Part shown: one piece after another, positions 24,811 through 44,087 of the stretch | How positions within the stretch are numbered: the stretch's first letter is position 1 | Layout of the letters: each line of letters begins with the position of its first letter | Source: Candidatus Roizmanbacteria bacterium RIFCSPLOWO2_02_FULL_40_13 | GTDB taxonomy: Bacteria > Patescibacteriota > Microgenomatia > UBA1406 > GWC2-37-13 | Direction: 5' to 3' | DNA length: 64,000 nt | Assembly: GCA_001789965.1 (NCBI GenBank) | Contig: MGBA01000001.1 | Location: 1 to 64,000, forward strand | The notes under the pieces: model-generated | Told to the model about the DNA's origin: nothing | The model's database searches: none | Seen by the model: the letters and a program-made list of their open reading frames with translations, nothing else | Translations under genes and position numbers: made by a program

Positions 24811-25527
24811 ATGAAAGCTATCATACTTGCGTCAGGAAAAGGTACAAGATTGGAATCTTTGGGAGATCTTCCTAAAGCTCTTCTTACTGTTAGCGGTAAA
24901 ACCTTGATCGAAAGACAGCTTGATTCATTTCTTGAGAATAAAATACACGATGTCATCATCACTACAGGATTTAAGGCAGATGAATTAAGATCGTTTATTC
25001 GGGGCAAATCAAAATACAAAGATCTTCATATTAATTATGTATTTAATCAACAGTATGACAAGACTAATTATATTTACTCTTTGTGGCTTGCTAAAAAGTA
25101 CATAAAAAACGATGATATAATCCTCGCTCACTCAGATGTGATATATGATTTTTCCTTGTTTAAGCGTATTGTAAATACAAAAAAGAGCCATGTTACTGTA
25201 TCCAGAAAAAAAAATATCAGATCTAAAGATCTGAAGGCCGAAGTTTCCAATGGAAAGGTTATCTATATAGGTTTAAGCCCTAAGGGTTCCAATACTTTTC
25301 TTTGTTCCTCTATATTCAAGTTGTATAAAAAAGATATGGATTGCTGGATGTCCGAAATTGATAGCTTTATAAGGAAAGGTGTCACCGATTGCTACGCGGA
25401 AGACGCCTTTAACAAAGTATCCGCCAAAATGGACCTTTATCCTCTCTATTTTGAGACCGAGCTGGGAATGGATATTGACGATCAGGAAGATTTAATCACC
25501 GTAAGAAAACTTCTAGAACACGAATAG
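24811..25527 (+). CDS. LicC/PntC-like nucleotidyltransferase, probably CTP-dependent
   Basis: 238 residues. The NTP-binding start ILASGKGTRL with LPKALLTVSGK is intact, and FNQQYDKTNYIYSLWLAKKY followed by ILAHSDVIYD resembles CTP:phosphocholine cytidylyltransferases of the LicC type (where the motif is close to YxxxNNIYS). The end ETELGMDIDDQEDL supplies acidic metal ligands. LicC relatives charge phosphocholine, and PntC relatives charge 2-aminoethylphosphonate, with CMP. Its stop lies 2 bases from that of the convergent methylphosphonate synthase gene. Charging of a phosphonate is an inference from this neighbourhood; a sugar phosphate substrate remains possible. Confidence 0.72.
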   Translation: MKAIILASGKGTRLESLGDLPKALLTVSGKTLIERQLDSFLENKIHDVIITTGFKADELRSFIRGKSKYKDLHINYVFNQQYDKTNYIYSLWLAKKYIKNDDIILAHSDVIYDFSLFKRIVNTKKSHVTVSRKKNIRSKDLKAEVSNGKVIYIGLSPKGSNTFLCSSIFKLYKKDMDCWMSEIDSFIRKGVTDCYAEDAFNKVSAKMDLYPLYFETELGMDIDDQEDLITVRKLLEHE

Positions 25528-25529
25528 AT

Positions 25530-26942
25530 TTAATACCAAAGCCCCGATTCTTCAGAAATTCTCTGAAGTGTTTTTGGAGGTAAGGAGGAAAGCTCAAATA
25601 ACGTATCTCCCGACAGGTTCCCACCGACCCGAACGATCATTAACTTACTTGGTTCCCGTTCATATCGTAATGCATGATTTACAAGCGGTTTAATATAAAA
25701 TGAGGCCTTGGGTTCTATAAGGTTTTCTTTGATTCTTCCACATTTTCCTTCCCAGAACAATATCGTCGGTTTATTCCCATAATTAAAGCCAAAGGTGTGA
25801 GAGGTAGACACCAAATCCGATTGTTTAGATTCTGCTGCCCGTAGTGGCTTAATTGAAAAGCTTTTTGTTGCGGCTGTTTTCGTTGATCCAGCAAGCTCTA
25901 AGATTTCATAACTTCTATTGTTATGATCAGGAAAAAATCTTGGTTGGCTCTCATTGTATTTTTTGACTACAACCTCCTCAGAAATTACGACGTCAGGCGG
26001 TAAAAGATCTCTGACATTAATTCCAAGTTCTCTGGCTAATATTTTGAGTTCCGTATCGTTGGGAATAGTTTCTCCTTTTATAATTTCCTCTACCCGTCTT
26101 TGATCGAGGTATGTCTCTTCTTCGGGGAAATGCAACGGGGAGAGGAGGGACTCGTTTAATTTTTGAGCAAGGAGATCTCCAAAAGACTTTCGAGAATCGG
26201 TTAAATCTATGAGCGCTCGCGACACTTGGTCGGGATGCAGTGTCGATAACTCTTGCTGAACGGCAATGTCAAGCTTTGAGCCAAAGGTTACAGCCATAAT
26301 ATATGCCTCGTCATGTGGATCACGATTTGTAAACGTGTGAGGAATATATGGAGTCTTATAGCTTGAATCTCCGGTGGAAAGCTCGACAACATGAGCTCCT
26401 TCACTATCTTTCCAATACAGATTAACAGGTCCTACATATAATGTAACCTGATGAAGAAAGTGACCATTGTTATAAACAGCCTCAGGATTTAAAGGATCGC
26501 TATCTTTTACGGTTCTTAAAGGATGAATACGTTCAGGTCTGAAAGGCCCCATTGCGCTCATTGCGGAATCAAAATAATCATAGTACTTAACCTTTTCCCC
26601 TCTGCCGTTGATTCTTTCAAAGGTACGCTTAGTTCGCTCTGCATTGATCGGGTCCATGATAATAATTCCCTCATCCGTATCATCGCGTACTACCTCAAGA
26701 CTGAGACGTGAAACAGGATATGCACCGGTAATCCCACCTATTACTTCCTCTACCTGATCCGTGGGCGCCCCGCCTGTTAAAACATTATTTACTACAGAGG
26801 GGTCTAGATCAAGTTCGTCTGCAAGAACGGTTGGTCCACGTTTTATATCTGCAGTTATACGCGCTATCTGAGTACCTTGTCTTTTTGAAAAAGTTGCATC
26901 TTTTTCTTTCCTATGTTTTGGTTCTCGTTCTAGTAGAGGCAT
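25530..26942 (-). CDS. mpnS: methylphosphonate synthase-like non-heme iron oxygenase (HEPD/MPnS family)
   Basis: 470 residues: N-terminal helix-turn-helix-like segment (about 20-60), first cupin (about 120-225), a second HTH-like segment (about 250-315) and a degenerate cupin at the end, the layout of 2-hydroxyethylphosphonate dioxygenase and methylphosphonate synthase. Iron-site residues are in YNNGHFLHQVT (His161, Gln165) and YKTPYIPHTF (His202). The H-x3-Q pair plus the later His matches the 2-His-1-Gln site known for Nitrosopumilus MPnS (His148, Gln152, His190). At the position of the HEPD ligand Glu176, six before the last His, there is Lys196. The enzyme would cleave 2-hydroxyethylphosphonate with O2 to give methylphosphonate. 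The three genes for making that substrate follow directly upstream. It has its own leaderless promoter. Confidence 0.85.
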   Translation of the reverse strand: MPLLEREPKHRKEKDATFSKRQGTQIARITADIKRGPTVLADELDLDPSVVNNVLTGGAPTDQVEEVIGGITGAYPVSRLSLEVVRDDTDEGIIIMDPINAERTKRTFERINGRGEKVKYYDYFDSAMSAMGPFRPERIHPLRTVKDSDPLNPEAVYNNGHFLHQVTLYVGPVNLYWKDSEGAHVVELSTGDSSYKTPYIPHTFTNRDPHDEAYIMAVTFGSKLDIAVQQELSTLHPDQVSRALIDLTDSRKSFGDLLAQKLNESLLSPLHFPEEETYLDQRRVEEIIKGETIPNDTELKILARELGINVRDLLPPDVVISEEVVVKKYNESQPRFFPDHNNRSYEILELAGSTKTAATKSFSIKPLRAAESKQSDLVSTSHTFGFNYGNKPTILFWEGKCGRIKENLIEPKASFYIKPLVNHALRYEREPSKLMIVRVGGNLSGDTLFELSSLPPKTLQRISEESGLWY

Positions 26943-26949
26943 GTTTAGG

Positions 26950-26958
26950 ATTATAGCA
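26950..26958 (-). promoter_or_regulatory. extended -10 promoter, leaderless start of mpnS
   Basis: On the minus strand TGC then TATAAT, then seven bases, then the ATG at 26942. The box lies in the 18-base gap after the alcohol dehydrogenase stop, so mpnS can be transcribed separately from the long upstream operon. Confidence 0.65.
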
Positions 26959-26960
26959 TA

Positions 26961-28091
26961 CTAGTAAATTTTCGCTAACATTTCTTCTAGCTCATTATGA
27001 CTTGGTATACGAGGAGCGTTTAAAGCGCGTTCAGGATCGTAGCCCTCCTTTACAATTGTTTTAATCCCCTTTCTGGGAATACCGAGTTCAGATAGTCGAG
27101 TTTTTAATCCAACAGAACTTATAAGGCTTCTTATCTTTTCCGATGCCTGTTTCGTATTTTTTACTCCTATCGCATCTAGGATCCTTTTTTTCCTTTTGAT
27201 GCTTAAAATGGGGAATGTATATTCAATAAAAAGAGGAAGTGTTATAGATGTAGCCTGGCCATGGGCAATTTTCCAATGAATTGTCATCGGATATGAAATT
27301 GAATGACAGATCGTGGTTTGGGTATTTGAGAAAGCAAGTCCTCCGAGAAGCGACCCTTTTGCAATCAGATCCCGTGTTTTTTTTGTAGGTTTTCTAACTA
27401 CGTTTTTTAGATTTGTCGTAAGTAAAGCGATTGCTTGAAGAGCATATTTATCAGTTGTCGGGTTGGAGTGTATATTCCAGTAGGCTTCTATAGCTTGACA
27501 CAGCGCATCAATACCTGAAGTAGCTGTGATTTTTGGCGGCATACTGTCGGTAAGCTCGGGGTCTACGAGTGCTATTGTTGGAAACATTAATTTTGTTGAA
27601 GATAAAGAAAATTTTTTATTCTTGCTCCATACCACAGCCCAAGGTGTAACTTCGCTACCGGTACCCGCTGTAGTTGGTACTGCGATATATAAAATTCCTT
27701 TGTTTTTTAATGTTTCGCCCTTTTTTGTATAGTCCTCGACTTGACCGTTATTGGTAGCAAGGATTGCCGCCGATTTTGCACTGTCAAGAATCGCTCCTCC
27801 ACCAACGGCTATGATTCCATCATATCCTTTTCGGGCATATGTACTAAGCTGGTTTATCGTAGCAAAATCAGATGTTGTTATTTTGAAGGGGTAATTAAAA
27901 ACTTTTTTTGTTTTATGCAATCCGTTCTTTATCTTATGATTTGCAAGGTGAGATCCTGTCACTAATAAAAACTTTTTCTGTTTTTGTTTCCTTATAATAT
28001 TCGATAGTTTACCGAGAGTTCCCCGACCAAAGTAGATTTCCGTCGGCATTTGATATCCACTTTTTCTTGTTTCGATTATTATTTTCCTCAT
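26961..28091 (-). CDS. iron-type alcohol dehydrogenase, phosphonoacetaldehyde reductase
   Basis: 376 residues of the Fe-dependent alcohol dehydrogenase family. Marks are the nucleotide motif AVGGGAILDSAKSAA, PTTAGTGSEVTPWAV, ALVDPELTDSMPP, SGIDALCQAIEAYW with the metal-binding Asp, and the His-containing CHSISYP and HGQATSITLP segments. In phosphonate clusters this family reduces phosphonoacetaldehyde to 2-hydroxyethylphosphonate (PhpC in phosphinothricin, the pdh-type gene in methylphosphonate clusters). That role is assigned here because the ATG overlaps the stop of phosphonopyruvate decarboxylase (ATGA) and a HEPD/MPnS-family gene follows. By sequence alone it could reduce other aldehydes. 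Confidence 0.85.
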   Translation of the reverse strand: MRKIIIETRKSGYQMPTEIYFGRGTLGKLSNIIRKQKQKKFLLVTGSHLANHKIKNGLHKTKKVFNYPFKITTSDFATINQLSTYARKGYDGIIAVGGGAILDSAKSAAILATNNGQVEDYTKKGETLKNKGILYIAVPTTAGTGSEVTPWAVVWSKNKKFSLSSTKLMFPTIALVDPELTDSMPPKITATSGIDALCQAIEAYWNIHSNPTTDKYALQAIALLTTNLKNVVRKPTKKTRDLIAKGSLLGGLAFSNTQTTICHSISYPMTIHWKIAHGQATSITLPLFIEYTFPILSIKRKKRILDAIGVKNTKQASEKIRSLISSVGLKTRLSELGIPRKGIKTIVKEGYDPERALNAPRIPSHNELEEMLAKIY

Positions 28092-29224
28092 TTCTTTATT
28101 TGTTTGATGTATTGCATGAACGAAGCTTTATTTTCCTGAGGAGTCGTAAGAGGTCTACCAAGATTTTTGCGGGATCCTTTTTGACACAGCACCTCGACAA
28201 ATACAGGACCTTGTCTTCTTTTTGCACGCTGCAATTCTTTTTTCAGTTCTCTTCCCGTCTTGACCGACGCTGTTGAGATATAGCCGTTCCCCTTTGCGAT
28301 TGTAGTAAAATCAATTGAATCAGCCGCGGTGGGCTGTCCTCCTACAGAGTCGTGTACGAAGTTATTAAAAAGCACATGTACAAAGTGCTTAGGTTTTTGT
28401 TGACCTATCACCGCCATCGATCCCATATGCATTATCATCGAACCATCTCCATCTAGACACCAGATCGTTTTTTTTGGCTGTGTTTTTGCAAGTCCCAACG
28501 CTATAGAAGAGGCATGTCCCATATTGCCTACGCAAAGGAAGTCTATCTTAGGATCTTCTTTGTTCGAAATTCTTAATTTATAGAGTTCTCGCGATGTTTT
28601 ACCGGTTGTCGAAACCACTATGTCATTTTTTCCCAATAAAGAGAGGATCGTAATAAGTGCAGCTTCCCGAGTCATTGGATACTTTTTTTGTTTCCTGTCC
28701 TTACTCTTGTATTTCGAAAATGAATGAGTACTTACAATAATTGCAAATGGAGAATTTTTCTTTTTGAAATGCGCTTGCGCCTTTCTTACGGCAGATGAAG
28801 CACTTCGTTTTGTATTTCCGAGTTTTGCATACGGAATATCCAGAATTTTTAAGAGTTTGTTTTGAACTTTTCCCATCGGTTTATGCTGCGGTTCATCTTG
28901 CTTGCCAGGTTCCCCCCGCCATCCGATAAGAAGCAGAATTGGAATTCCATAGACCTGTGATGATGTCAGGGAGGTCAAAGGGTTTACGGCATTTCCCAAA
29001 CCCGAATTTTGTAGGTATACCAGAGCAGGTTTTCCGGTTGAGAGATAGTAGCCTGTGGCGATAGCTACAGCATTTCCTTCATTAGCGGCTATTACATGCC
29101 TTGAGGTATCTATGTGATCGACTACATACGCGCAAAACTCTTTCAATACTGAATCCGGAACTCCAGTATAAAATTGAATATCTTTTTCTCCAAGGATTTT
29201 AAAAAAGATTTTAGGATTAATCAT
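28088..29224 (-). CDS. ppd: phosphonopyruvate decarboxylase
   Basis: 378 residues, a thiamine-diphosphate enzyme. It begins with the FYTGVPDSVLKEF segment, has the catalytic-Glu motif ANEGNAVAIATGYYL, PLTSL, a WRGEPGKQDEPQH loop, the ThDP site LDGDGSMIMHMGSM, and NNFVHDSVGGQPT, a pattern specific to phosphonopyruvate decarboxylases. It drives the unfavourable PEP mutase equilibrium by turning phosphonopyruvate into phosphonoacetaldehyde and CO2. It lies 5 bases after the PEP mutase gene and overlaps the dehydrogenase gene by 4 bases, so the three are one translation-coupled block. Confidence 0.93.
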   Translation of the reverse strand: MINPKIFFKILGEKDIQFYTGVPDSVLKEFCAYVVDHIDTSRHVIAANEGNAVAIATGYYLSTGKPALVYLQNSGLGNAVNPLTSLTSSQVYGIPILLLIGWRGEPGKQDEPQHKPMGKVQNKLLKILDIPYAKLGNTKRSASSAVRKAQAHFKKKNSPFAIIVSTHSFSKYKSKDRKQKKYPMTREAALITILSLLGKNDIVVSTTGKTSRELYKLRISNKEDPKIDFLCVGNMGHASSIALGLAKTQPKKTIWCLDGDGSMIMHMGSMAVIGQQKPKHFVHVLFNNFVHDSVGGQPTAADSIDFTTIAKGNGYISTASVKTGRELKKELQRAKRRQGPVFVEVLCQKGSRKNLGRPLTTPQENKASFMQYIKQIKK

Positions 29225-29229
29225 ATGTA

Positions 29230-30948
29230 TTAACTGTTGCGGTAAAATTTACCCGCAAGTTTAATATCATCTTCGTTGTGAATTTCCATCCACCCCTTGT
29301 ATGTTTTTAGAATTTTTACTTGATATCCTCGGTCAACAATTTCTTGGACGACATCAGTGAATGAAGACAAACGGGCCCTTTTTTTCGTAAGTGAATGATA
29401 TACTTCTTTTAAGACAGTAGCTCCCTTTTTAGAAAAGTAGGCAATTCCAATGAATTCATAATGAACCATTTTATCTGTTAGGTTTTTTCCTATATAAACA
29501 ACTTGTTCATCTAAACTATCAGTTAATTTTCGTATAGGTTCCATAGCATTGGTTTTATTAGTTCTTACAAGATCAAGTTTTTTGTACTTTGAATGTCGAT
29601 GATTTTTATACGATTCATCAACTACAAGGACAATATCTGCTTCTGCTTGAGCTGATTGAACAACTAAATTATTTATTATGCTTTGATTAAAGAGCACATC
29701 TGAAAATAAGGTTACAAATGGTCCATTCATCTCTCGTTCTGCTTTAAATAAAGTGGCAAGAACTCCAGTTGTGCCGTAGTCCTTATTTACATAGTATCTA
29801 AGGTTTTCTAAACCGAACTTATCTTTTTCAAATCCAGTTACAACGATAATATTATCTATTCCAACCTTGGCAAGCACTTCTATCTGTCGTTGGAGCACTT
29901 TTTTCCCGTTTATGTCGATTAGAGATATTGAAGATTTTAGCTTCTTTGTTAAGTCTGTTATTCCAGCGGCAGGAATTATAACTTTTATTTTCGATTTAAG
30001 TTTGTCAGCTGCTTTTTTATCTTTTTCCTTGACCGTCATAAATCCAACTTTATGAAATATTTTTCGAATCGTTGCTAATTCGCCTTCAACCTCAAAAGAT
30101 CTGTCATTAAGAAGGATTTTTTTTGCAGTATTTTCTATAGCTATAAAGGAGGATCTGAGAAGATGGTTTGCGTGAATTACTATATGAAAGCCGTTTTTAT
30201 TAAGCTCAGAATCAGTTATCGTATTGTAAGTAGTAGGAACAGCAATCAAAACTTTATCTTTGAGTAGTTTTTTAGGAAATTTTCTATAATATTCTTTTGC
30301 AAATTCTAAAATTTCTGTAGGTTCTGTTCGTTTAGAATGTATCATAATACCATCGGCACCGGCCTTAAGACATATTCTGGCTCTTCTAAGAGCTTCTTTA
30401 ATTCCGTGCCCTACGATAAGACTTTCCATACGAGCGACTATCATAAAATCCTTATGTATTTTAATTTTCTGACCTCTTTTAATTTTTTCAGCAAACACCT
30501 CGATTTTTTCTAAATCCTGCTTTGTTCCTGCTTCCAGACTATTGCGCTTAGGAAAAGTTTTATCCTCTATAATAACCATTGAGACACCAGCTCTTTCCAA
30601 TCGCTTTACAGCATATTCAAACTGGTTGAAATCTCCTCCTGTGTCTCCATCCACTATTAAAGGCTTACTGGTAACTTCTAAAATCTCGTTTATGGTATGT
30701 AGTCTTGAATCAAAACTTACGACCTCAATATCGGGGAATCCCTTTGAAGCTGAGTCTGTCAGACTACTTTCCCAAATAGCATCGAACTCCTTTTCTCTAC
30801 CAGTCTCTAACTTAATTTTTGTATCATTGGCAAGGAGGGCACTTAAACCATTATGTGCCTCTATTACTCTTATAAATTTATTTTTTTTAATCAGCCTTCT
30901 CAAAAGACGTATCCGCGTTTTGTTGTCGATAATATGACGAAGAGACAT
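29230..30948 (-). CDS. pepM: PEP mutase fused to nucleotidyltransferase-like domain
   Basis: 572 residues. Residues 15-300 are a PEP mutase/isocitrate lyase TIM barrel with VDGDTGG (99-105) and the diagnostic EDKTFPKRNS at 128-137, which marks true phosphoenolpyruvate phosphomutases. The enzyme forms the C-P bond by converting PEP to phosphonopyruvate. Residues 321-572 resemble a sugar-phosphate nucleotidyltransferase (VIIPAAG, NVLFSDV-like FVTLFSDVLF, GWMEIHNEDD), but the GxGTR loop and KPK lysine are not conserved (ITDLTKKL follows AAG). PepM-nucleotidyltransferase fusions are known in other phosphonate clusters. Here the catalytic capacity of the second domain is doubtful. It lies 3 bases after the CDP-alcohol phosphotransferase gene. 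Confidence 0.93.
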   Translation of the reverse strand: MSLRHIIDNKTRIRLLRRLIKKNKFIRVIEAHNGLSALLANDTKIKLETGREKEFDAIWESSLTDSASKGFPDIEVVSFDSRLHTINEILEVTSKPLIVDGDTGGDFNQFEYAVKRLERAGVSMVIIEDKTFPKRNSLEAGTKQDLEKIEVFAEKIKRGQKIKIHKDFMIVARMESLIVGHGIKEALRRARICLKAGADGIMIHSKRTEPTEILEFAKEYYRKFPKKLLKDKVLIAVPTTYNTITDSELNKNGFHIVIHANHLLRSSFIAIENTAKKILLNDRSFEVEGELATIRKIFHKVGFMTVKEKDKKAADKLKSKIKVIIPAAGITDLTKKLKSSISLIDINGKKVLQRQIEVLAKVGIDNIIVVTGFEKDKFGLENLRYYVNKDYGTTGVLATLFKAEREMNGPFVTLFSDVLFNQSIINNLVVQSAQAEADIVLVVDESYKNHRHSKYKKLDLVRTNKTNAMEPIRKLTDSLDEQVVYIGKNLTDKMVHYEFIGIAYFSKKGATVLKEVYHSLTKKRARLSSFTDVVQEIVDRGYQVKILKTYKGWMEIHNEDDIKLAGKFYRNS

Positions 30949-30951
30949 ATG

Positions 30952-31704
30952 CTATTTTTGAAAATGATCAAGATATGAAAAAGTTGCGTATTTTTTTGAG
31001 AGAGCAGGTTTAGCGTAATGAAAAGACAATATAAGATACATACTTAAAGATCTAACAATAATAGCTATTCCGAAAAGAATAAATGTATATTCGAGAATAT
31101 TAAGAAAAATTCCAACAAGCATATAGAGTCGTAGAGTAAATAAACTAAGAAAAAAAATATCTGTTGGCGCAATCATATTCTTCATAAAACGGTCAAATAA
31201 TGACCTATTTTTTTTAAAGAGTTTTTCAAGTGTGACATTACCAATGTACGCATCTATATCAAATTCAAGAGTAAGTCTCATTCCTAAAACATTCGCTATT
31301 CCTTGTCCGAATAATGGCAAAAGCGCCATTAATCGCCACATTTCATTTCCACTCATGAGAATGTTGAGTGTAATGACAAACATGATAGTGGTTTGGAGCA
31401 TTGTGTCAAGGCTCATGTCAAGCCAACGACCTAAAGATGACTGGATATTTTTCTTTCTAGCTAGTCCTCCATCTACCAAATCAAAAAAAGAATAGATTAC
31501 GATTGCAGTTAGCCCTAAGATATTATTTGAAAAACCGCCCCTAAAGAAAAAATATGCAGAGAGAGGAGCAAAAATGAGGAAGTTGCAAATTGTAACTTGA
31601 TTTGCTGTTATGGGAGTATCGCTAAGGAATGTTATGATCGGGTTAGCTAATTTTTTTTGAATTATTAATGTAGGGTCAGTTGTTTTTCTTGAGGATTTTT
31701 TCAT
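30952..31704 (-). CDS. CDP-alcohol phosphatidyltransferase family protein
   Basis: 250 residues with about six membrane helices. The catalytic signature DG-x2-AR-x8-G-x3-D-x3-D is complete: Asp78, Gly79, Ala82, Arg83, Gly92, Asp96 and Asp100, with Asp75 before it. The family displaces CMP from a CDP-activated alcohol or lipid. In this setting, between glycosyltransferases and phosphonate genes, it could transfer a CMP-activated phosphonate or phosphoalcohol to a lipid or glycan, or simply make a phospholipid. It overlaps the upstream GT4 gene by 29 bases, so it is not an isolated housekeeping gene. Which alcohol it uses cannot be read here. Confidence 0.86.
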   Translation of the reverse strand: MKKSSRKTTDPTLIIQKKLANPIITFLSDTPITANQVTICNFLIFAPLSAYFFFRGGFSNNILGLTAIVIYSFFDLVDGGLARKKNIQSSLGRWLDMSLDTMLQTTIMFVITLNILMSGNEMWRLMALLPLFGQGIANVLGMRLTLEFDIDAYIGNVTLEKLFKKNRSLFDRFMKNMIAPTDIFFLSLFTLRLYMLVGIFLNILEYTFILFGIAIIVRSLSMYLILSFHYAKPALSKKYATFSYLDHFQK

Positions 31705-32842
31705 ACGTTTGAGTTATTATTCTACCAAGCTTTGGGCCGAATTGACGAGCAAATTTTATCGATGAAGAAGACATCTGTTTCGCAATTTCAGGATTCTTAC
31801 TAAGGTAAATAATCTTTTGTCTTATCTCTTTTGGATTCGGTTTTAAAACGTATCCTACGTCTTTAGTCAAGCGGTATACTCCAGAGCCCTGATTGCTGTT
31901 TATTACAGGAGTTCCTGCTGCCATAGACTCAAGGAGGACACGTGCCAAATCCTCATTGTAAAGTGCAGGATATATATAAACATCAGATGCCGCAAAATAT
32001 TTACCGATCTTTGTATTTGGAATTTTTCCTAAATATTCTGTGTTTGAAAGTTTTGCCACGGTACTCTTAACATAATCCAACTCAGGTCCCCCGTCACCAA
32101 TTATTTTAAACTGAATGGAAGGACCCACTTGTTTTGCAACATCGATAAAAACTCTAATTCCTTTAATCCGGATCAACCTGCCGACGTAAAGCACGGTGAA
32201 TTTGTTTTTCCAACCGAGTTTTCTCTTAAGCAGATCTTTATTTGCAGGCTTGAAATTTTTAAGTCGTATCCAGTGAATATAGACAATAATCTTTTTTTTT
32301 GGAAGACCTAATTTAACAAACTCATCGCGTGATTCTTCAGATCCAACGAGGATCGCATCAAGATCCTTCAATACCCAGCGGGCAACTTTAGCAAAAAAAC
32401 TTCCGGGTACAAAATCATATAAAGCCTCCGAGGACATGACTATTTTTTGATTGAATACAAGCTTAAGAAAACGTCCTATAAAGGAGGCGTTAAGTCCAAA
32501 AACATGAATTAAGTCATATTTGTTTTTGTTTAAAAGCATATGTATAAAAGATCTGACTAAAAGATACGGAGTAATATATAGGAAATTAAAAATAGGAGGA
32601 TATGACTCAAACTTCGCAAATAGATTCTCTCCAAACCACTGATATCGGTAGATCGTTAAGTTTTTTTTCTTTTCAATTGATTTGGTATCCACTCTTCCTA
32701 CGAGCGGTTTATAGGTCAGCAGGGTGACATTGTAATTTTCATGACGGAGATATTCATACAGATCTTCGAGATGAGTTTCGGCTCCACCCAGTTGTGGTGG
32801 AGCAAATGGAGTTATGAGAAGTACCCGCTTGATATGAGTCAT
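31676..32842 (-). CDS. GT4 family glycosyltransferase
   Basis: 388 residues. N-terminal ITPFAPPQLGGAETHLEDL is the classic GT4 acceptor-side glycine motif. The donor domain shows TVLYVGRLIRIKGIRVFIDV, FKIIGDGGPEL, YLGKIPNTKIGKYFAASDVYI and PALYNEDLARVLLESMAAGTPVI. It should be a retaining glycosyltransferase using a nucleotide sugar. Overlaps the CDP-alcohol phosphotransferase gene at its end and follows a methyltransferase gene by 9 bases. Confidence 0.9.
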   Translation of the reverse strand: MTHIKRVLLITPFAPPQLGGAETHLEDLYEYLRHENYNVTLLTYKPLVGRVDTKSIEKKKNLTIYRYQWFGENLFAKFESYPPIFNFLYITPYLLVRSFIHMLLNKNKYDLIHVFGLNASFIGRFLKLVFNQKIVMSSEALYDFVPGSFFAKVARWVLKDLDAILVGSEESRDEFVKLGLPKKKIIVYIHWIRLKNFKPANKDLLKRKLGWKNKFTVLYVGRLIRIKGIRVFIDVAKQVGPSIQFKIIGDGGPELDYVKSTVAKLSNTEYLGKIPNTKIGKYFAASDVYIYPALYNEDLARVLLESMAAGTPVINSNQGSGVYRLTKDVGYVLKPNPKEIRQKIIYLSKNPEIAKQMSSSSIKFARQFGPKLGRIITQTYEKILKKNN

Positions 32843-32851
32843 GAGTAGGGT

Positions 32852-33562
32852 TTATTTTTTAAAGACAAAAGATCTAGTTGAGCCGGGAATGCGTAAAAAG
32901 CGGAATAAACTTTCTAACTTGTAAAAAACTTTTGGGCCAAATAATTTTCCGACAGCATCTGCGATGATATTTATACTGTAAAAATGATTTGAAGGCTTGT
33001 ACGATATAAGCCGAAGAGGCTTAAACATTTCAATTAGCTCCTTCTTTGATCTGAACTTCCAATTTTTCCAAAACATTGTGCTTATAAGCCACATAAGTGA
33101 AGGTCTTTGCATGTCAAGTACGATAAGTACTCCTCGAGGTTTTAATATCCGCTTGACTTCATTAATGATTCGAAACCTACTTTCATCATCAGGCAAACAG
33201 AATAGAATGTTCATAAGAGCTATGACTTCGTAACTTTTGTCCGGAATTTTTTGAAGTCCTATATTGCTCGGAGAATCCAAAACGAGTTTTAAATTAAGTC
33301 CCACTTTTCTTGCTTGTTTCGGCGTATATTTTACTTCTTTCCTTTCAACGTCAATTCCCACGACATCTTTTATGCCGAGAGCTTTATATATCTCAAAAGT
33401 TCTTCCCCTTCCTACTCCTACATCTAAAATTGTTTTTCCTTTAAAATTAAAGGCGGTCATATAAGCCGCTTCATACGTCGCAATCATGTACTCCTGTGTC
33501 CAAAAATACATATAACTGTTTTTCTTATGAATGTCGAAATCGAAGTTAAAATTACGTGCCAT
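32852..33562 (-). CDS. class I SAM-dependent methyltransferase
   Basis: 236 residues, Methyltransf_11 type: ILDVGVGRGRTFEIY (motif I), VVGIDVERKEV, VIALMNILFCLPDDESR, then ILKPRGVLIVLDMQRP. The N-terminal stretch with YMYFWTQEYMIATYEAAYM precedes motif I. It lies between an aminotransferase gene (11-base overlap) and a GT4 gene, so it probably methylates a sugar or lipid-linked intermediate of the locus. Confidence 0.8.
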   Translation of the reverse strand: MARNFNFDFDIHKKNSYMYFWTQEYMIATYEAAYMTAFNFKGKTILDVGVGRGRTFEIYKALGIKDVVGIDVERKEVKYTPKQARKVGLNLKLVLDSPSNIGLQKIPDKSYEVIALMNILFCLPDDESRFRIINEVKRILKPRGVLIVLDMQRPSLMWLISTMFWKNWKFRSKKELIEMFKPLRLISYKPSNHFYSINIIADAVGKLFGPKVFYKLESLFRFLRIPGSTRSFVFKK

Positions 33563-34649
33563 AGAAATTATTTACCTCTCGGGCAATATATTCTACCTCT
33601 TTTTTACGGAGTTCGGGATAAATAGGAAGAGACAAAATAGTACTTGCCAGTTTTTCAGCTACCGGAAAGTCTCCCTTTTTGTATCCTAGACGTTTATAGC
33701 ACTTTTGAAGGTGAATCGGCACAGGATAATGTATCTGCGCTTTTATTCCTTTCTTTAGAAGATATGCTTGTAGTTTGCTACGATGTTTACACTCAATTAT
33801 TAAAAGATGGAAATTGGATTTGGAGTCCTTTAATATTTTTGGAAACTTTAAATCCTTAAGCATTTTTTTATAGATTTCTGCGAGTTTGTTCCTTTTTTTA
33901 TTCCAATCATCAAGATGTCTTAATTTAACAGAAAGTACTGCTGCCTGAATGTCATCCAGTTTTGAGTTGTGGCCAACTGAGTCATGATAATACCTCTTTT
34001 GCTGACCAAAATTTCTAAGTTTAAGGAGCTTCATATAGAGACTTTTACTTTTTGTCACGATTGCTCCACCATTGCCGTATGCTCCAAGATTTTTTCCTGG
34101 GTAAAAACTAAATACACCAGCGACGCCAAACGTGCCAAGCTTTTTCCTTTTATAACTCGATCCCTGCGCTTGACAGGCATCTTCAACGAGAAAAATTCTG
34201 TGTTTTTTACAAATTTTGACGAGGGATTCGATATCGCACGCAGCGCCATATAAATGGACTGGTAAGATAGCACGTGTTTTTTTGGAAATCTTTTTTTTGA
34301 CTTGATTAATGTTCAGCTGGTGAGTGTCGGGATCTACATCTACAAAAACCGGTGTAGCTCCGGCGTTGGTTATGCAGAAAGTAGTTGATATAAAACTATT
34401 GACAGGGGTTATTACTTCATCACCCTTCCCAATACCAAGAGCCTCTAGTGCTAAATTAAGTCCGTCTGTGCCATTATCTACCCCTACCACATAAGAGATT
34501 CCCAAGTAAGATGCAAATGAAGACTCGAATTTTTCCAGTACGTTTCCCAGTACGAAAGTCTGGCGGGACAAAACATTCGAAATCGCCTTACTAACTTCTT
34601 TATTGATAGTGGCGTATTGCCGTTTCAGATCTACAAACTCCACTATCAT
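33552..34649 (-). CDS. DegT/DnrJ/EryC1 sugar aminotransferase
   Basis: 365 residues, PLP-dependent. The Schiff-base Lys186 is in FSFYPGKNLGAYGNGGAI, Asp157 is in VEDACQAQGS, and the DNGTDGLNLALEALG opening and TPVNSFISTT segment are normal for the family. It aminates a 3-keto or 4-keto nucleotide sugar using glutamate. With the adjacent cupin and RmlB it would give a dTDP-amino-6-deoxy sugar, for example of the Fuc3N or Qui3N type. One base separates it from the cupin gene. Confidence 0.92.
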   Translation of the reverse strand: MIVEFVDLKRQYATINKEVSKAISNVLSRQTFVLGNVLEKFESSFASYLGISYVVGVDNGTDGLNLALEALGIGKGDEVITPVNSFISTTFCITNAGATPVFVDVDPDTHQLNINQVKKKISKKTRAILPVHLYGAACDIESLVKICKKHRIFLVEDACQAQGSSYKRKKLGTFGVAGVFSFYPGKNLGAYGNGGAIVTKSKSLYMKLLKLRNFGQQKRYYHDSVGHNSKLDDIQAAVLSVKLRHLDDWNKKRNKLAEIYKKMLKDLKFPKILKDSKSNFHLLIIECKHRSKLQAYLLKKGIKAQIHYPVPIHLQKCYKRLGYKKGDFPVAEKLASTILSLPIYPELRKKEVEYIAREVNNFYGT

Positions 34650-34650
34650 A

Positions 34651-35037
34651 CTATTTCTCTACTTCTAGCCTGATCGTATCTGCCTCGTATTTAGACTGAA
34701 CTCTAGATTCAGTTGTTACCACTACCATAAAGGAGTCTTCAAGAAAGACAACTTTATGAGCGAGTTTAGGAGGCGTAACAACGATTTCACCGGCTTTAAT
34801 GACAATGGTCTTTGATTTGGATTTCTTTTTTCCCAGGACTCTGGTGATGTACTTAAACTTTCCTTTTATAAGATAAATGAGGTGGGTATCCTTTTTATGA
34901 TAGTGATTGGCTCTGACAGCGCCTTTTTTTGAAGAGATTGCAAGTACATCCTTTATCCTCATTTTCTCGTGGGTAAGGTAGCTGAGCTTTCCTCTTTTGT
35001 CTTTGTGAAATGCTTTAACTTTTCTTATGTGTTTCAT
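34651..35037 (-). CDS. RmlC-like cupin, possible 3,4-ketoisomerase (FdtA/QdtA type)
   Basis: 128 residues, single cupin. KDKRGKLSYL near the N terminus, RANHYHKKDTHLIYLIKGKF, and VVTPPKLAHKVVFLED with the late His fit the sugar cupin pattern of FdtA/QdtA proteins, which move the keto group of dTDP-6-deoxy-hexos-4-ulose to C3 before amination. The position between RmlB and a DegT aminotransferase supports this. Unlike RmlC epimerases it lacks RGLH, so epimerase function is less likely. Confidence 0.68.
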   Translation of the reverse strand: MKHIRKVKAFHKDKRGKLSYLTHEKMRIKDVLAISSKKGAVRANHYHKKDTHLIYLIKGKFKYITRVLGKKKSKSKTIVIKAGEIVVTPPKLAHKVVFLEDSFMVVVTTESRVQSKYEADTIRLEVEK

Positions 35038-35067
35038 CGGTAAGGTGCTATTGTATATTAATTTTGT

Positions 35068-36186
35068 CTAGATTTCATCGGGATTATCTTCCTGTACCCA
35101 ATGTCGGTGATAATTCTTTGCTTCTTCGAAGGTATAGTAGCCTTTTGCTTGCTTATCGTAATGTTTTGAAAAATCGGGATTTTTCTTAATTTTTTTCCAC
35201 CACTTCACATTCGTTTCGTACCATGAAATTATATCCCCGATGCTTTCTTTGTAGGAATTCAATGGTTTCCAGCCAAGCTCTCTTGTAATTTTTTTATGAC
35301 TTTGCGCATATCGAAAATCTGGTCCGGGGCGGTCGTGTACATGATATATAAATTTTTTATAGTTAACTTTTAAAATACGAGCTATAGTGCGGATAACCTC
35401 AAGATTATTTTTTTCTTCGCCCGAAACATTGTAAATCTCAAAACTTTTCCCTTTATGAAGAATGAGGTCCAATGCAGTGCAAAAGTCCTTGACATTGAGC
35501 CAGCTTCTTTCATGATTCCCTTTACCATGAATTGGAATTTGCTTTCCCTCAAGAAGATTAGTGATGACCAGCGAGTGAAGTTTTTCCGGGTTTTGATGAG
35601 TACCATAGTTATTTGAGCTTCTTAGAATGATTGCCGGAACCTTATGGGTCTTAATATAGGATTGTACCATCAGATCGGCACTTGCCTTTGACGCGGAATA
35701 GGGATTTGTTGGCTGCAAGGGGGACAATTCAGTGGCTTTCCTCCCCATTGGGATATCTCCGTAGATTTCATCCGTAGAGATGTAGATGTACCGAGGTACA
35801 TTCAGTCTGTATACGAGATCCAACAAAATATATGCTCCTTGAATATTTGTCCGTATAAATTCGATTGCGTTGAGGATAGATCTGTCCACATGTGATTCGG
35901 CAGCAAAATTTATCACTACATCGAACTGCTCTTTTTTTATCAGAGATTCAAGAAGCACCTTGTCATTGATGTCGCCTTTTATAAACTTATATCGCCGATT
36001 TTTCTTTAGAAGTTTTTTTTCTTTTTCTACAATATCTCTTAAATTGTCTAAATTCCCGGCATATGTCAAAAGGTCGTAATTGTAGATTTTATATTTCGGA
36101 TATTTTGTATAAATATGCCGGGTGAAGTGTGAGCCCATAAAACCTGCACCTCCGCAAATTAGAATTTTTTTTGAATTCTTCTTCAT
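35068..36186 (-). CDS. rmlB: dTDP-glucose 4,6-dehydratase
   Basis: 372 residues, extended SDR. Seen are ILICGGAGFMGSHFTRHI (cofactor loop), NFAAESHVDRSI, ISTDEIYGDI with the catalytic Asp-Glu, and YSASKASADLMVQSY with Tyr-Lys, followed by NNYGTHQNPEKL and GNHERSWLNVKDF. This is the standard RmlB pattern. It converts dTDP-glucose to dTDP-4-keto-6-deoxyglucose. It overlaps the C-methyltransferase gene by 4 bases. It probably feeds the cupin and aminotransferase beside it and perhaps the RmlC-like gene at 3841. Confidence 0.93.
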   Translation of the reverse strand: MKKNSKKILICGGAGFMGSHFTRHIYTKYPKYKIYNYDLLTYAGNLDNLRDIVEKEKKLLKKNRRYKFIKGDINDKVLLESLIKKEQFDVVINFAAESHVDRSILNAIEFIRTNIQGAYILLDLVYRLNVPRYIYISTDEIYGDIPMGRKATELSPLQPTNPYSASKASADLMVQSYIKTHKVPAIILRSSNNYGTHQNPEKLHSLVITNLLEGKQIPIHGKGNHERSWLNVKDFCTALDLILHKGKSFEIYNVSGEEKNNLEVIRTIARILKVNYKKFIYHVHDRPGPDFRYAQSHKKITRELGWKPLNSYKESIGDIISWYETNVKWWKKIKKNPDFSKHYDKQAKGYYTFEEAKNYHRHWVQEDNPDEI

Positions 36187-37415
36187 AGCACCTCTATTTC
36201 ATCCCCCACGGGTATGATAAACTTTCCACCCTTTTTCCTGAACTTTTTCTCTTTTTCTAAAATCGCTTTTTTATAATTCCATGCAAGCATAAGATAATAA
36301 TCAGGTTCGTGTTGTTTGGCGTAATCAGGAGGAACGACTGGAATATGTGTTCCAGGTGTGTAAAGGCCCTGCTTCGAAGGTAAGTGTTCAATGGCAAAGT
36401 CCAGGATGTCAGTCCCAATTTTATAGTAGTTTAATATAGTATTGCCCTTGGCGGGAGCTCCGTATCCGGCTATTGTTCTCCCTTGCTTTTTAAATTTCTT
36501 TAAAAGCGCCATGAGTTTACTTTTGGATTCTGAGACTCTTAAAGCAAGTTTTTTATAGGTACCCAGTTTATCCAATTTACAGCTCAACTCTTTTTTTATA
36601 AGTTTTTTTACAATAGGTTTTATGTTATGTCTTCCCTTTTTTCCGGCAAAAACGCGTATAGACATACCCTGCACTGGAACTACTTGTACATCAAAAATTT
36701 CTAAACCATGGAGGTTGAATAAATAACTTAACGGACGAATTGCTAAAAAAGAGAGGTGTTCGTGGTAGACTGTATCAAAAGTTAGATTTTCGAACATATC
36801 GATAAGATACGGCGCCTCAAGAATAAAGACTCCATCTTCGGACAGAAGTGCATTAAGTCCCCTGCACAGATCTTGATGATCGTCTATGTGCGCCACAACG
36901 TTGTTTGCCATAATAATCTTGGCTTTTCCATACTTTTTCGCTATTTGCTTTGCTAATCGCTCACTAAAGAACTTTGGAATCGTTTCAATTCCCAATTTTC
37001 CTGCCACTTTTACGATATTTAATGCTGGTTCGATACCTAATGTTTTGAACCTTCTTTTTTTAAAAAACTCCAAAAGCACACCGTCATTACTTGCTATTTC
37101 TACTACGAAGTCATTTGGCTTAAGAAATTTTTTTATTACATGAAGTGCATAGTTTTTAAAGTGATCTGAAATTTTCGGCATACCGGAAGTAAAATAAATA
37201 TAATTTCTGAAAAGTTCTTCTTTACTTACTATGTCAAGAAGTTGGGCAAGATTACACGTATGACAGAAATATACATCCAAAGGATAAAATTTTTCGCGTT
37301 TTTTTAAATCCTTTTTTCTCAGGAATGCATTTGCCGGAGGTTGTGGACCGAGAATGAGAAATTTTGTAAATTTTCGCCTTGAGCAAATTCTACATTTGGT
37401 ATTCTTTTTAACCAT
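36183..37415 (-). CDS. NDP-hexose C-methyltransferase-like protein
   Basis: 410 residues with three parts, the layout of TylC3-type C-methyltransferases: an N-terminal zinc site (CRIC and CHTC), the SAM domain with VVEIASNDGVLLEFF and NNVVAHIDDHQDL, and a C-terminal domain with IAGYGAPAKGNTILNYY. The family methylates C3 of a 4-keto nucleotide sugar to make branched sugars. Next to RmlB this predicts a C-methylated, perhaps aminated, deoxy sugar in the glycan. An AGAGGATC before the ATG is a weak ribosome site, and a TATTCT box lies upstream in the 101-base gap, so a promoter may start here. Confidence 0.87.
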   Translation of the reverse strand: MVKKNTKCRICSRRKFTKFLILGPQPPANAFLRKKDLKKREKFYPLDVYFCHTCNLAQLLDIVSKEELFRNYIYFTSGMPKISDHFKNYALHVIKKFLKPNDFVVEIASNDGVLLEFFKKRRFKTLGIEPALNIVKVAGKLGIETIPKFFSERLAKQIAKKYGKAKIIMANNVVAHIDDHQDLCRGLNALLSEDGVFILEAPYLIDMFENLTFDTVYHEHLSFLAIRPLSYLFNLHGLEIFDVQVVPVQGMSIRVFAGKKGRHNIKPIVKKLIKKELSCKLDKLGTYKKLALRVSESKSKLMALLKKFKKQGRTIAGYGAPAKGNTILNYYKIGTDILDFAIEHLPSKQGLYTPGTHIPVVPPDYAKQHEPDYYLMLAWNYKKAILEKEKKFRKKGGKFIIPVGDEIEVL

Positions 37416-41501: not shown

Positions 41502-43232
41502 CTAAAGATTTACTGCACTGTCGGCTAGACGTATTGCTGATTTCTCTGCATCAACTGAAGTTTTGGGAGAGAAAAAGTGCTTACTGAGTTTCTTGTAAGC
41601 GTTTTTCCAAAATTTAGGAGATCTCCAACTTACTTTAGTTTGGTTTGGGTCAAAATCTAAAAGATGACCAATAAGCTTCCATCCCATGTAAAAAAGATAC
41701 TTAAAGTCATGAAAACTCCGTATTCCCGCTAATTTTCTAAAAATATACTGCGGAGTCATAAAAGCCGAATAAAGATCCTGTTCGAGTTCATAAATCTTTT
41801 TAACAGGAAACGGTGTTTTCATGACGGACTGTCTCATGTCAAATTTATCGTAGTCGTCTGTCAGAAGCCAACCTTTTTCTTTACATTCCTGATAAAGAGG
41901 CGTTCCTGGATACGGGATAACTATTGTCGCTTGCATCGTCTCGTAATAGCCTTTTTTAAAGGCATATTTTGCAATAGCAATGGTTCTTTGTGCTTCCTTG
42001 TAGGTTTCCCATGGATACCCAAGCATGATGGTTATATGCGGATCTAGACCGGCTTTTCTTGCCATGCGGGGACCGTTAATGGCGTCAACTTCTTTGGTTC
42101 CCTTATCAAGCTTATCAAGGGTTCTTTGGTTTCCCGATTCCATGCCGTACAGAATAAATCTAAAGCGGGCTTTACCTAAAAGGTCGTAATACTCTTGGTT
42201 GAGGGCGTTAAACCTCATATTGCAGCCATAACACACTTTTTTATTGTAGCCGCTCTCGATTAGGAGCTCGCAAAATCTCTTTAATTTGGGTCCGATAAAC
42301 ATGGTTCCTGCATCATCAAAAATCTCTTTAACACCGTATTTATCCACTACGTGTTTTACTTCGGCAAATAATCGCTCTGGAGAAAAGCTTCGATATGATC
42401 CGAGCGGATTTATGGTGTGATCCCAGACACAGAACGTGCAACGGTTCCACCAACAGTCGCGTCCCGAATACATGTAGGTTGCCGGTGTATATTTATAATT
42501 GCCGTTTTCATAGGCGTAGAGTTCCCATCTGGTAAGATCGCGATCAACAAACGGCAGATCGTCAAGGTTGTGACGTAGCGATGTAGACCCGCTATTATGT
42601 ACGGTAGTACCGTTTTTTAATGTGTTACTTGCTGTTGGCTTTGCCTTTACATCTTTATTTGTTGATCTCCAATATACGCCGCCTTCAAGTTCCTCTCCCT
42701 TATATATATGATTGAGCAGATTTACGATGACAAAGTCATAATCTCCGCCTGTAATTGCGTAATCAACATTACTGTTTTCAAAAAGCTCAAGCGGAATGTA
42801 CGTAACATGATCCCCCACCCAAATCAGCTTAAGGTTAGGTAGTTTTTCCTTGAGATCATTGATTTGTTTCCAGTGGGTCTTCACGATCGGGGACTTGGTT
42901 TCTACCAGAAGATAGTCAGCCTTGCTTTTTTTCAGCTCCTCAATCCATACGTCGTATTCTTTTCGCTCAGAAATACCATCCATCCAGTAAACTTTGTATC
43001 CTTTATGCTGAAGATTTGAGGCTGCGTAGGCAGGAACCATGGGGTAGATATACGTGGCTGCATTGAAGTACTGAAATTGTCGGTTTTGAGAAAGAAGAGG
43101 TACTCCTTTAGCAGACTTGATTGGAGGATATCCGACAACTACTACAATATCCTTAAGACGCTTGATCTTTTCTCCGCGCGTGTTGGCAGTTTTCAGAAGA
43201 CCATTGACTGATCTTTTTTGAGACTTCGTCAT
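41502..43232 (-). CDS. B12-binding-domain radical SAM protein
   Basis: About 576 residues. Residues ~30-180 form a cobalamin-binding-like Rossmann domain (VVVVGYPPIKSAKG, IWVGDHVTY, YAITGGDYDFV). The iron-sulfur motif is GRDCWWNRCTFCVW with three Cys spaced C-x4-C-x2-C, one residue longer than the standard C-x3-C-x2-C. GMESGNQRTLDKLDKG and IMLGYPWET follow. Such enzymes do difficult methylations or rearrangements; substrate unknown. Two adjacent ATGs exist at 43235 and 43232; I chose the second because TATACT lies 7 bases before it. It shares the strand with the iron permease and ferredoxin genes, but the promoter suggests separate transcription. Confidence 0.8.
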   Translation of the reverse strand: MTKSQKRSVNGLLKTANTRGEKIKRLKDIVVVVGYPPIKSAKGVPLLSQNRQFQYFNAATYIYPMVPAYAASNLQHKGYKVYWMDGISERKEYDVWIEELKKSKADYLLVETKSPIVKTHWKQINDLKEKLPNLKLIWVGDHVTYIPLELFENSNVDYAITGGDYDFVIVNLLNHIYKGEELEGGVYWRSTNKDVKAKPTASNTLKNGTTVHNSGSTSLRHNLDDLPFVDRDLTRWELYAYENGNYKYTPATYMYSGRDCWWNRCTFCVWDHTINPLGSYRSFSPERLFAEVKHVVDKYGVKEIFDDAGTMFIGPKLKRFCELLIESGYNKKVCYGCNMRFNALNQEYYDLLGKARFRFILYGMESGNQRTLDKLDKGTKEVDAINGPRMARKAGLDPHITIMLGYPWETYKEAQRTIAIAKYAFKKGYYETMQATIVIPYPGTPLYQECKEKGWLLTDDYDKFDMRQSVMKTPFPVKKIYELEQDLYSAFMTPQYIFRKLAGIRSFHDFKYLFYMGWKLIGHLLDFDPNQTKVSWRSPKFWKNAYKKLSKHFFSPKTSVDAEKSAIRLADSAVNL

Positions 43233-43265
43233 CATCTATAGTATAGGCGCTTCTTTAAGTCAATG

Positions 43266-44087
43266 TCAAGCTGGGAGGCTATTCTTTTTTCTTTTAAAGA
43301 ATAAAAATCGAATCATGAAGAGTGTATAAGCAGAGTAAAAAACAAGCTGCATGGCATCCATTGTTTTAGTCAGTCCAAACACTATCTGTATCAGACTGCC
43401 CATAAAAGAAGACGTGTGTGGAATAAACGCGAGCGTAATTTTACCCATTTCCGGGAAAAAGCCCACCTCGGTGAATTCATGTGCACCCCGTCCCAGTAAG
43501 CCCGCGGCAAACAAAACAAGGAGAATACTTGTCGTTCTAAAGGCATAGTGTAGCGGAAGTTTTACGAGTGAGGTAAAGAGAGCAAAAGAAACAACCAGCG
43601 CAACTAGAGCTCCGCTAGTAAATCCTATAAAAATACTCGTTGGATTAGAAGAAAAATATATGGTCGAAAGAAATAATGCGATTTCGAATCCCTCCCGAAA
43701 AACAGCCGTAAAGACAAGGAAAAACAAGCCTTTCTGTTCCTCTGTCTCAATTTTTTCCTTAACGCTTTTGAGCAAATGAATTTTATACCGGGAAAACGAC
43801 TTATGTAAGAAAAAGACTGCCCATGTAATAAATACGGCAGAAAGAATCATCAATACACCCTCGATAAGTTCCTCTGTCCTTCCGGAATAGAGTTTTTGCA
43901 TCTGGAATCCCAAAAGACTCCCAATCCCAACCAGAGCAATACTCGCTACAGCGGCTGCCGTCGTCGCATATATCACTGTTTTTATCCCCTTCCCTTGATG
44001 AAGCTTCACGAGGATTCCCAATATTGTTACGACAATAAGCGCTGCTTCGATTACTTCGCGGAATGTAATGAGAAAAGCCGGTAGCAT
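43266..44087 (-). CDS. FTR1/EfeU family iron permease
   Basis: 273 residues, seven membrane helices. The two iron-binding REXXE motifs are present: REVIE at residues 10-14 and REGFE at 131-135. The family takes up iron together with a partner oxidase or EfeO/EfeB; no such partner is nearby. A radical SAM enzyme and a ferredoxin lie on either side. The promoter is TGG then TATACT (44104-44096) eight bases before the ATG, close to the leaderless spacing. Confidence 0.9.
   Translation of the reverse strand: MLPAFLITFREVIEAALIVVTILGILVKLHQGKGIKTVIYATTAAAVASIALVGIGSLLGFQMQKLYSGRTEELIEGVLMILSAVFITWAVFFLHKSFSRYKIHLLKSVKEKIETEEQKGLFFLVFTAVFREGFEIALFLSTIYFSSNPTSIFIGFTSGALVALVVSFALFTSLVKLPLHYAFRTTSILLVLFAAGLLGRGAHEFTEVGFFPEMGKITLAFIPHTSSFMGSLIQIVFGLTKTMDAMQLVFYSAYTLFMIRFLFFKRKKNSLPA

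Follow-up and report, generated by a model that had tools for sequence, protein, structure and literature searches.

A phosphonate biosynthesis gene cluster with a divergent oxygenase of the methylphosphonate synthase family in a bacterium of the candidate phyla radiation

The DNA analyzed here (the window) comprises the first 64,000 nucleotides of contig MGBA01000001.1 of Candidatus Roizmanbacteria bacterium RIFCSPLOWO2_02_FULL_40_13, a member of the candidate phyla radiation (CPR, Patescibacteria). It contains four consecutive minus-strand genes (25530-30948; Table 1), which a preliminary description had identified as phosphoenolpyruvate (PEP) mutase (PepM), phosphonopyruvate decarboxylase (Ppd), an Fe-type alcohol dehydrogenase (Fe-ADH) and an oxygenase of the family of 2-hydroxyethylphosphonate dioxygenase (HEPD) and methylphosphonate synthase (MPnS). 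The four reading frames are intact, and a search of the four proteins against known families gave matches that bear out these identities. The same description had proposed a complete pathway from PEP to methylphosphonate (MPn). Of this proposal, a clustered route from PEP to 2-hydroxyethylphosphonate (2-HEP) with a dedicated MPnS/HEPD-family oxygenase stands, while methylphosphonate as the product is not established, given the residues Leu175-Lys196 of the oxygenase and its position in a separate CPR clade.

The cluster and its genome

PepM matched TIGR02320 (339 bits, cut-off 319.6) as well as PF13714 and PF12804, and its EDKTFPKRNS sequence conforms to the EDKxxxxxNS motif of PepM-type phosphonate biosynthesis. 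Ppd, encoded next to pepM, scored 473 bits with TIGR03297 (cut-off 312.5). The best NCBIfam match of the Fe-ADH was the model for phosphonate Fe-ADHs, TIGR03405, with 232 bits, under the cut-off of that model (423.7). The metal site of this protein is D195-Q199-H263-H277, an unusual set that is common to 27 of the 37 Fe-ADHs adjoining phosphonate genes and is therefore not a defect of the window protein, which is predicted to be, probably, a phosphonoacetaldehyde reductase of the phosphonate type. The first three genes nearly touch or overlap, as originally described (a 5 nt gap between PepM and Ppd, a 4 nt overlap between Ppd and Fe-ADH), and the oxygenase gene lies only 18 nt from that of the Fe-ADH, indicating that it is operon-like too. 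PepM would convert PEP to phosphonopyruvate, Ppd would decarboxylate the latter to phosphonoacetaldehyde and the Fe-ADH would reduce this aldehyde to 2-HEP; the prediction that the route from PEP to 2-HEP is encoded here is well supported.

The characterization of the genome as CPR-like agrees with its size (925 kb, 94.3% complete) and with the lack of ribosomal protein uL30, a hallmark of the CPR: uL30 (PF00327) was detected in none of 36 genomes (this one and 35 relatives) and in 13 of 14 controls. That the contig is chimeric and the cluster derives from another organism, a concern raised in the preliminary description, is extremely unlikely and found no support. The cluster is located on a 171-kb contig (C1) together with the single 16S gene found in the genome, the window carries the housekeeping genes gyrA, gyrB and hisS, and none of 29 segments of comparable length comes closer to the contig mean in tetranucleotide composition than the cluster, whereas the phosphonate loci of other genomes are about 2 to 5 times further from that mean. 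Moreover, the nearest relatives of the oxygenase and of PepM occur in another CPR genome (G587). The risk of such an error is nonetheless real, as illustrated by the only other Patescibacteria-labelled MPnS in the named collection (L012, JANWIZ010000035.1, "Patescibacteria CRAIB_MAG54"), which was rejected as a CPR MPnS because all 8976 bp of its contig align at 95.3% identity with the thaumarchaeotal locus L009, evidencing a binning error; another MPnS fragment is present in the genome concerned (G540).

The genome encodes a superoxide dismutase, which fits exposure to O2. The carbon-phosphorus lyase subunit PhnJ was looked for in the genome and not found, which argues against breakage of the C-P bond by this lyase in the cell. 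Elsewhere in the window, an FTR1-family iron permease (43266-44087) is encoded beside a radical SAM protein (41502-43235), in a CPR genome that also encodes an iron-dependent oxygenase.

The oxygenase: fold, phylogeny and product-marking residues

The oxygenase gene is a full-length frame of 470 amino acids whose product matched methylphosphonate synthase (6b9s, E 1.4e-74) and the Streptomyces albus HEPD (6b9r, E 8.9e-55) in the Protein Data Bank (PDB). Its AlphaFold (AF2) model has a predicted local distance difference test (pLDDT) score of 92.5 and, according to Foldseek, is nearest to the MPnS crystals 6b9s/6b9t, including the complex with 2-HEP, with template modeling (TM) scores of 0.85-0.94 for most chains. 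An identity as a non-phosphonate cupin was ruled out, since the MPnS crystals were the top matches in both sequence and fold and oxalate decarboxylases matched far more weakly. The His-Gln-His iron triad (H161, Q165, H202) is kept, as are K34, R110, Y123 and N158, which our own reading of the structure and sequence alignments equates with K16, R90, Y98 and N126 of HEPD; all of these positions are invariant in the 44 sequences aligned. The protein thus combines the two-domain cupin fold, the 2-His-1-Gln iron site and the phosphonate-binding Lys/Arg/Tyr/Asn set that define the family. With Fe(II) held by His161-Gln165-His202, it would cleave 2-HEP between C1 and C2 at the expense of O2, and the compound released would most likely be methylphosphonate, as with MPnS; O2-dependent cleavage of 2-HEP as such is likely.

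Compared with characterized systems, the window protein shares with Nitrosopumilus maritimus MpnS (6b9s, 6b9t) the two-domain fold (TM 0.87-0.94), the triad, the preceding enzymes of a pepM-ppd cluster and a nearby cytidylyltransferase, but the two are 36% identical and Leu-Lys replaces Phe-Ile at the product-marking pair. The thaumarchaeal loci found have a split Ppd and a divergent gene order, in contrast to the compact single-strand operon of the window with its PepM-nucleotidyltransferase fusion and one-piece Ppd. The class II HEPD of S. albus belongs to the same family and has the same triad; it is 30% identical, carries Tyr-Gly at the pair and belongs to a clade from which the window protein is excluded (p 0.004-0.009 in the approximately unbiased, AU, test). 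HEPD of Streptomyces viridochromogenes (PhpD; 3g7d, 4yar) has the fold and the substrate-binding residues in common with it, although identity is only about 18% and the third ligand, Glu176, corresponds to Lys196 in the window.

A scan of 84,980 genomes yielded 56 oxygenase loci. In the resulting tree all 20 proteins with Gly184 (HEPD-type), including the S. albus HEPD, form one clade (support 100/99), and the window protein lies outside it, on the same side of this branch as the MPnS-type sequences. Placement within the HEPD clade was rejected by the AU test (p 0.009 for the window protein alone, 0.0039 together with its CPR relative from G587), so that the outcome expected if the enzyme were a HEPD did not occur. 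Its placement relative to the characterized MPnS clades was less clear-cut: the MPnS-type sequences are not one clade, the grouping of the CPR pair with the Nitrosopumilus type was rejected (p 0.015), and the pair forms its own clade (100/100) that branches alone between the marine-bacterial type and the side holding Nitrosopumilus and HEPD. On the grounds of its sequence, the window oxygenase is assigned to the 2-HEP dioxygenase family, within which it represents a third subtype beside canonical MPnS and HEPD.

At the columns of N. maritimus positions 162 and 184, Phe-Ile was found in 34 of 34 MPnS-type sequences and Tyr-Gly in 20 of 20 of the HEPD type. It was reported that the Tyr-Gly motif is diagnostic of class II HEPD (PMC8976061) and that the MPnS motif requires Phe and Ile next to Gln (PMC11978286); the mapping of these motifs onto columns 162/184 is deduced from their spacing, and the residue arguments given here are based on these two papers, the alignment counts and general knowledge. 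The window oxygenase has neither pair and would fail the MPnS motif test as described in PMC11978286.

Several observations weigh against methylphosphonate as the product. Leu175 stands in place of Phe162 and Lys196 in place of Ile184; the Leu-Lys pair occurs in the window alone among the sequences compared, which offer no precedent for Lys at 184. Position 184 aligns with Glu176 of the S. viridochromogenes HEPD, the metal ligand of that enzyme (4yar is its E176H mutant), and mutation at this position is known to shift the product of that HEPD between hydroxymethylphosphonate (HMP) and methylphosphonate. In addition, the protein deviates at five of 50 nearly invariant columns, including R124F and W138R, the most among the sequences compared. 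On the other side, the residues at columns 151 (His) and 185 (Thr) are of the MPnS type, and the Leu at 162 is hydrophobic, as Phe is. Methylphosphonate is thus favored by the tree, His 151, Thr 185 and the hydrophobic residue at 162, and is, with modest confidence, the likeliest product; the confidence is no higher because of the unprecedented Lys at 184 and the Gly of the CPR sister at the same position.

It is unlikely that the reaction is that of HEPD, which would convert 2-HEP to HMP and formate, HMP or a downstream product then being attached to the surface. The G587 protein shares Gly184 with all 20 class II HEPDs and neither CPR protein has the MPnS Ile, which is consistent with such a reaction, but both proteins lie outside the HEPD clade and have Leu instead of the HEPD Tyr at 162, and the window has His and Thr where HEPDs have Tyr/Asn/Phe (151) and Leu/Val/Lys (185); HEPD identity was rejected on the AU test together with residues 151, 162, 183 and 185. 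A rather unlikely alternative is that the CPR clade, with Leu162 and Lys or Gly at 184, performs a different oxidation or uses another phosphonate substrate, giving neither MPn nor HMP. This would agree with a diagnostic pair unlike both characterized classes in both members, with their long separate branch (0.79 stem and 0.87 tip) and with the near-invariant positions changed in the window; against it, the known iron- and phosphonate-binding residues are all kept and the adjoining Ppd and Fe-ADH supply 2-HEP, the usual substrate.

Other variants were noticed in the family. Three actinobacterial members (L005, L006 and L058, from Amycolatopsis acididurans, Ca. Frankia californiensis and Pseudonocardiaceae), with His-His or His-Thr at 162/184, adjoin PepM, a split Ppd and Fe-ADH and appear to be another uncharacterized subtype. 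On two DPANN contigs, L019 (Pacearchaeota) and L031 (Woesearchaeota), an MPnS with the canonical Phe-Ile pair is encoded alongside Ppd and Fe-ADH; in the former, PepM is also present, separated from MPnS by a radical SAM-SPASM gene, and a CDP-alcohol phosphotransferase is encoded close by. In the complete Elusimicrobiota genome CP096137.1 the MPnS gene (L047, 9001-10330) is split over two frames, by either a frameshift or a sequencing error.

Distribution in the CPR

Whether other Patescibacteria carry the block, as asked in the preliminary description, has an affirmative answer for the four-gene order in one genome. G587, a CPR genome of the same class and another family (94% complete), has PepM-Ppd-FeADH-oxygenase in the same order on its contig 7 (L124), with identities to the window of 61, 35, 50 and 45%, respectively. 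Its PepM is unfused and its oxygenase has Leu-Gly at 162/184; the frame of the latter stops prematurely, no more than 75 bases from where the contig ends, and its C-terminus is unsure. The Leu162 common to both proteins is therefore a feature of this CPR lineage and not an error of a single assembly, while position 184 varies within the lineage.

Among 380 genomes sampled from the whole phylum, only that of the window had the oxygenase; among 373 genomes of the class, two credible carriers were found (that of the window and G587). The remaining CPR matches (E about 1e-3 to 1e-5) were short, weak and in unrelated frames, those obtained with alignment A1 lying over the helix-turn-helix part of the profile, and were discarded as oxygenases. 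PepM above its curated cut-off was more frequent, occurring in 6 of the 380 genomes (about 2%) and in 3 of 72 genomes of the same family. Other CPR clusters (G122, G191, G200, G143) have PepM-Ppd-FeADH and stop there, and would likely make 2-HEP surface phosphonates; the loci concerned (L106-L109), together with L104 of G197, comprise PepM (in some cases fused to a nucleotidyltransferase), Ppd and Fe-ADH, with no oxygenase. These clusters, along with the divergence of the window oxygenase at conserved positions, could suggest that the latter is decaying or inactive and that the real product is 2-HEP. This is very unlikely, as the frame is intact, the metal and substrate residues are all present, the MPnS fold is confidently predicted and an orthologue occupies the same position in G587.

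In further CPR clusters the gene after Ppd seems, as read from the sequence only, to encode either an aminotransferase or an aldehyde dehydrogenase. In two genomes of the window's own family (L076 and L077, from G445 and G030) PepM-Ppd is followed by an aldehyde dehydrogenase-like gene and preceded by a gene of about 370 amino acids, an order predicted to lead to a different phosphonate end product.

No evidence of viral carriage was obtained, as no phage record matched. On the single IMG/VR contig with a family member (L075, IMGVR_UViG_3300030107_006534), MPnS (Phe-Ile) is accompanied by PepM and a short Fe-ADH-like gene. The part read otherwise held glycan and metabolic genes only, with LicD, an epimerase, panB and a TPP enzyme that look cellular, so the contig was probably misclassified as viral. 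The literature searched, which covered a minority of subscription papers, contained no report of MPnS in the CPR.

Neighboring genes and proposed fate of the product

The cluster lies inside a block (22.6 to 47 kb) that is largely a glycan locus. The separate cytidylyltransferase next to the oxygenase gene matched LicC (1jyk, 6e-13) and PntC (6pd1, 1.1e-7) in the PDB and is 39% identical to the product of the gene after Fe-ADH in the CPR cluster of G200. The CDP-alcohol phosphotransferase, whose gene overlaps that of a glycosyltransferase, is one of four in the genome and has an intact DGx2ARx8Gx3Dx3D motif (DGGLARKKNIQSSLGRWLDMSLD). LicD had no match among the neighbors scanned. The preliminary description mentioned neither these two genes nor the glycan locus, nor the domain fused to PepM.

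Table 1. Features of the phosphonate cluster and adjoining genes (positions in the window)
Feature	Position	Strand	Remarks
LicC/PntC-like cytidylyltransferase, separate	24811..25527	+	Intact LASGKGTRL...PKALL; convergent with oxygenase, 2 nt beyond it
MPnS/HEPD-family 2-hydroxyethylphosphonate dioxygenase, putative third (CPR) subtype	25530..26942	-	6b9s match; own clade with G587
Codon of His202	26337..26339	-	Third iron ligand (N. maritimus H190); alignment
Codon of Lys196 (AAG)	26355..26357	-	Ile184 in MPnS, Gly in class II HEPD, Glu176 in S. viridochromogenes HEPD
Codon of Leu175 (CTG)	26418..26420	-	Phe162 in MPnS, Tyr in class II HEPD
Codons of His161 and Gln165	26448..26462	-	Two of three iron ligands (N. 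maritimus H148, Q152); alignment
Fe-type alcohol dehydrogenase	26961..28091	-	Probable phosphonoacetaldehyde reductase, forming 2-HEP; PF00465/PF25137
Ppd, phosphonopyruvate decarboxylase	28088..29224	-	TIGR03297
PepM	29230..30948	-	PEP mutase, aa 1-312, with EDKTFPKRNS; C-terminal NTP-transferase-like domain, aa ~320-565
CDP-alcohol phosphotransferase	30952..31704	-	PF01066, E 3.3e-13; 3 nt upstream of PepM
Contiguous upstream glycan genes	31676..37415	-	Pfam: GT4 glycosyltransferase, methyltransferase, DegT aminotransferase, FdtA-like cupin, NAD-sugar epimerase, sugar C-methyltransferase

In an alignment with fused and separate relatives, the nucleotide-binding signature is missing from the MobA/LicC-like domain of the PepM fusion (PAAGITDLTKKLKSSISLID in place of LAAGxGxRL...PK), and GxGxR...PK is likewise eroded where such domains are fused in other clusters. 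It is possible that the domain in the window is a structural pseudoenzyme, with an intact separate copy nearby. Fusion of PepM to a nucleotidyltransferase and activation with cytidine monophosphate (CMP) are known chemistry of surface phosphonates (PMC6697681). The window resembles these PntC/LicC phosphonyl-tailoring systems in the fusion, the second nucleotidyltransferase nearby and the logic of CMP activation, and departs from them in its degenerate fused domain, in a phosphonate other than aminoethylphosphonate and in the probable role of a CDP-alcohol phosphotransferase as the transferase.

Based on the surface-glycan locus and the adjoining cytidylyltransferase and CDP-alcohol phosphotransferase, the product of the cluster is probably attached to a surface glycan or lipid. 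The LicC/PntC-like enzyme would convert the phosphonate to CMP-phosphonate and the phosphotransferase would pass the phosphonyl group to an alcohol of the locus glycan or of a lipid. The enzyme families, the catalytic residues, the clustering and the CPR origin are evident from the sequence itself. Flux through the pathway, its product, CMP activation and the acceptor are what we infer from the genes; it counts against the proposal that activation and transfer are read from neighboring genes, the acceptor and the place of CMP activation in the order of steps being guesses.

Altogether, the same gene order in G587, the presence of PepM-Ppd-FeADH in further CPR genomes, the predicted MPnS fold, the placement outside HEPD and the kept triad tilt the balance slightly toward a CPR bacterium that makes a small alkylphosphonate, most likely methylphosphonate, for a surface glycan or lipid. 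More tentatively, the two CPR proteins may be a third 2-HEP dioxygenase lineage of the CPR's own, with a control of the product unlike that of MPnS and HEPD, used for surface decoration.

Phosphonate synthesis, as judged by PepM, exists in a small fraction of the CPR genomes sampled. If the product is methylphosphonate, the organisms that supply the precursor of aerobic methane would include CPR bacteria, and a genome of 0.93 Mb would be investing PEP, NAD(P)H and O2 in a phosphonate that presumably serves the cell surface. Sequences such as this oxygenase would be lost to the published check for the Phe/Ile motif. Irrespective of what it makes, this enzyme varies naturally at precisely the pair of positions to which the choice between methylphosphonate and hydroxymethylphosphonate is ascribed, and offers a structure-function test in a single protein.

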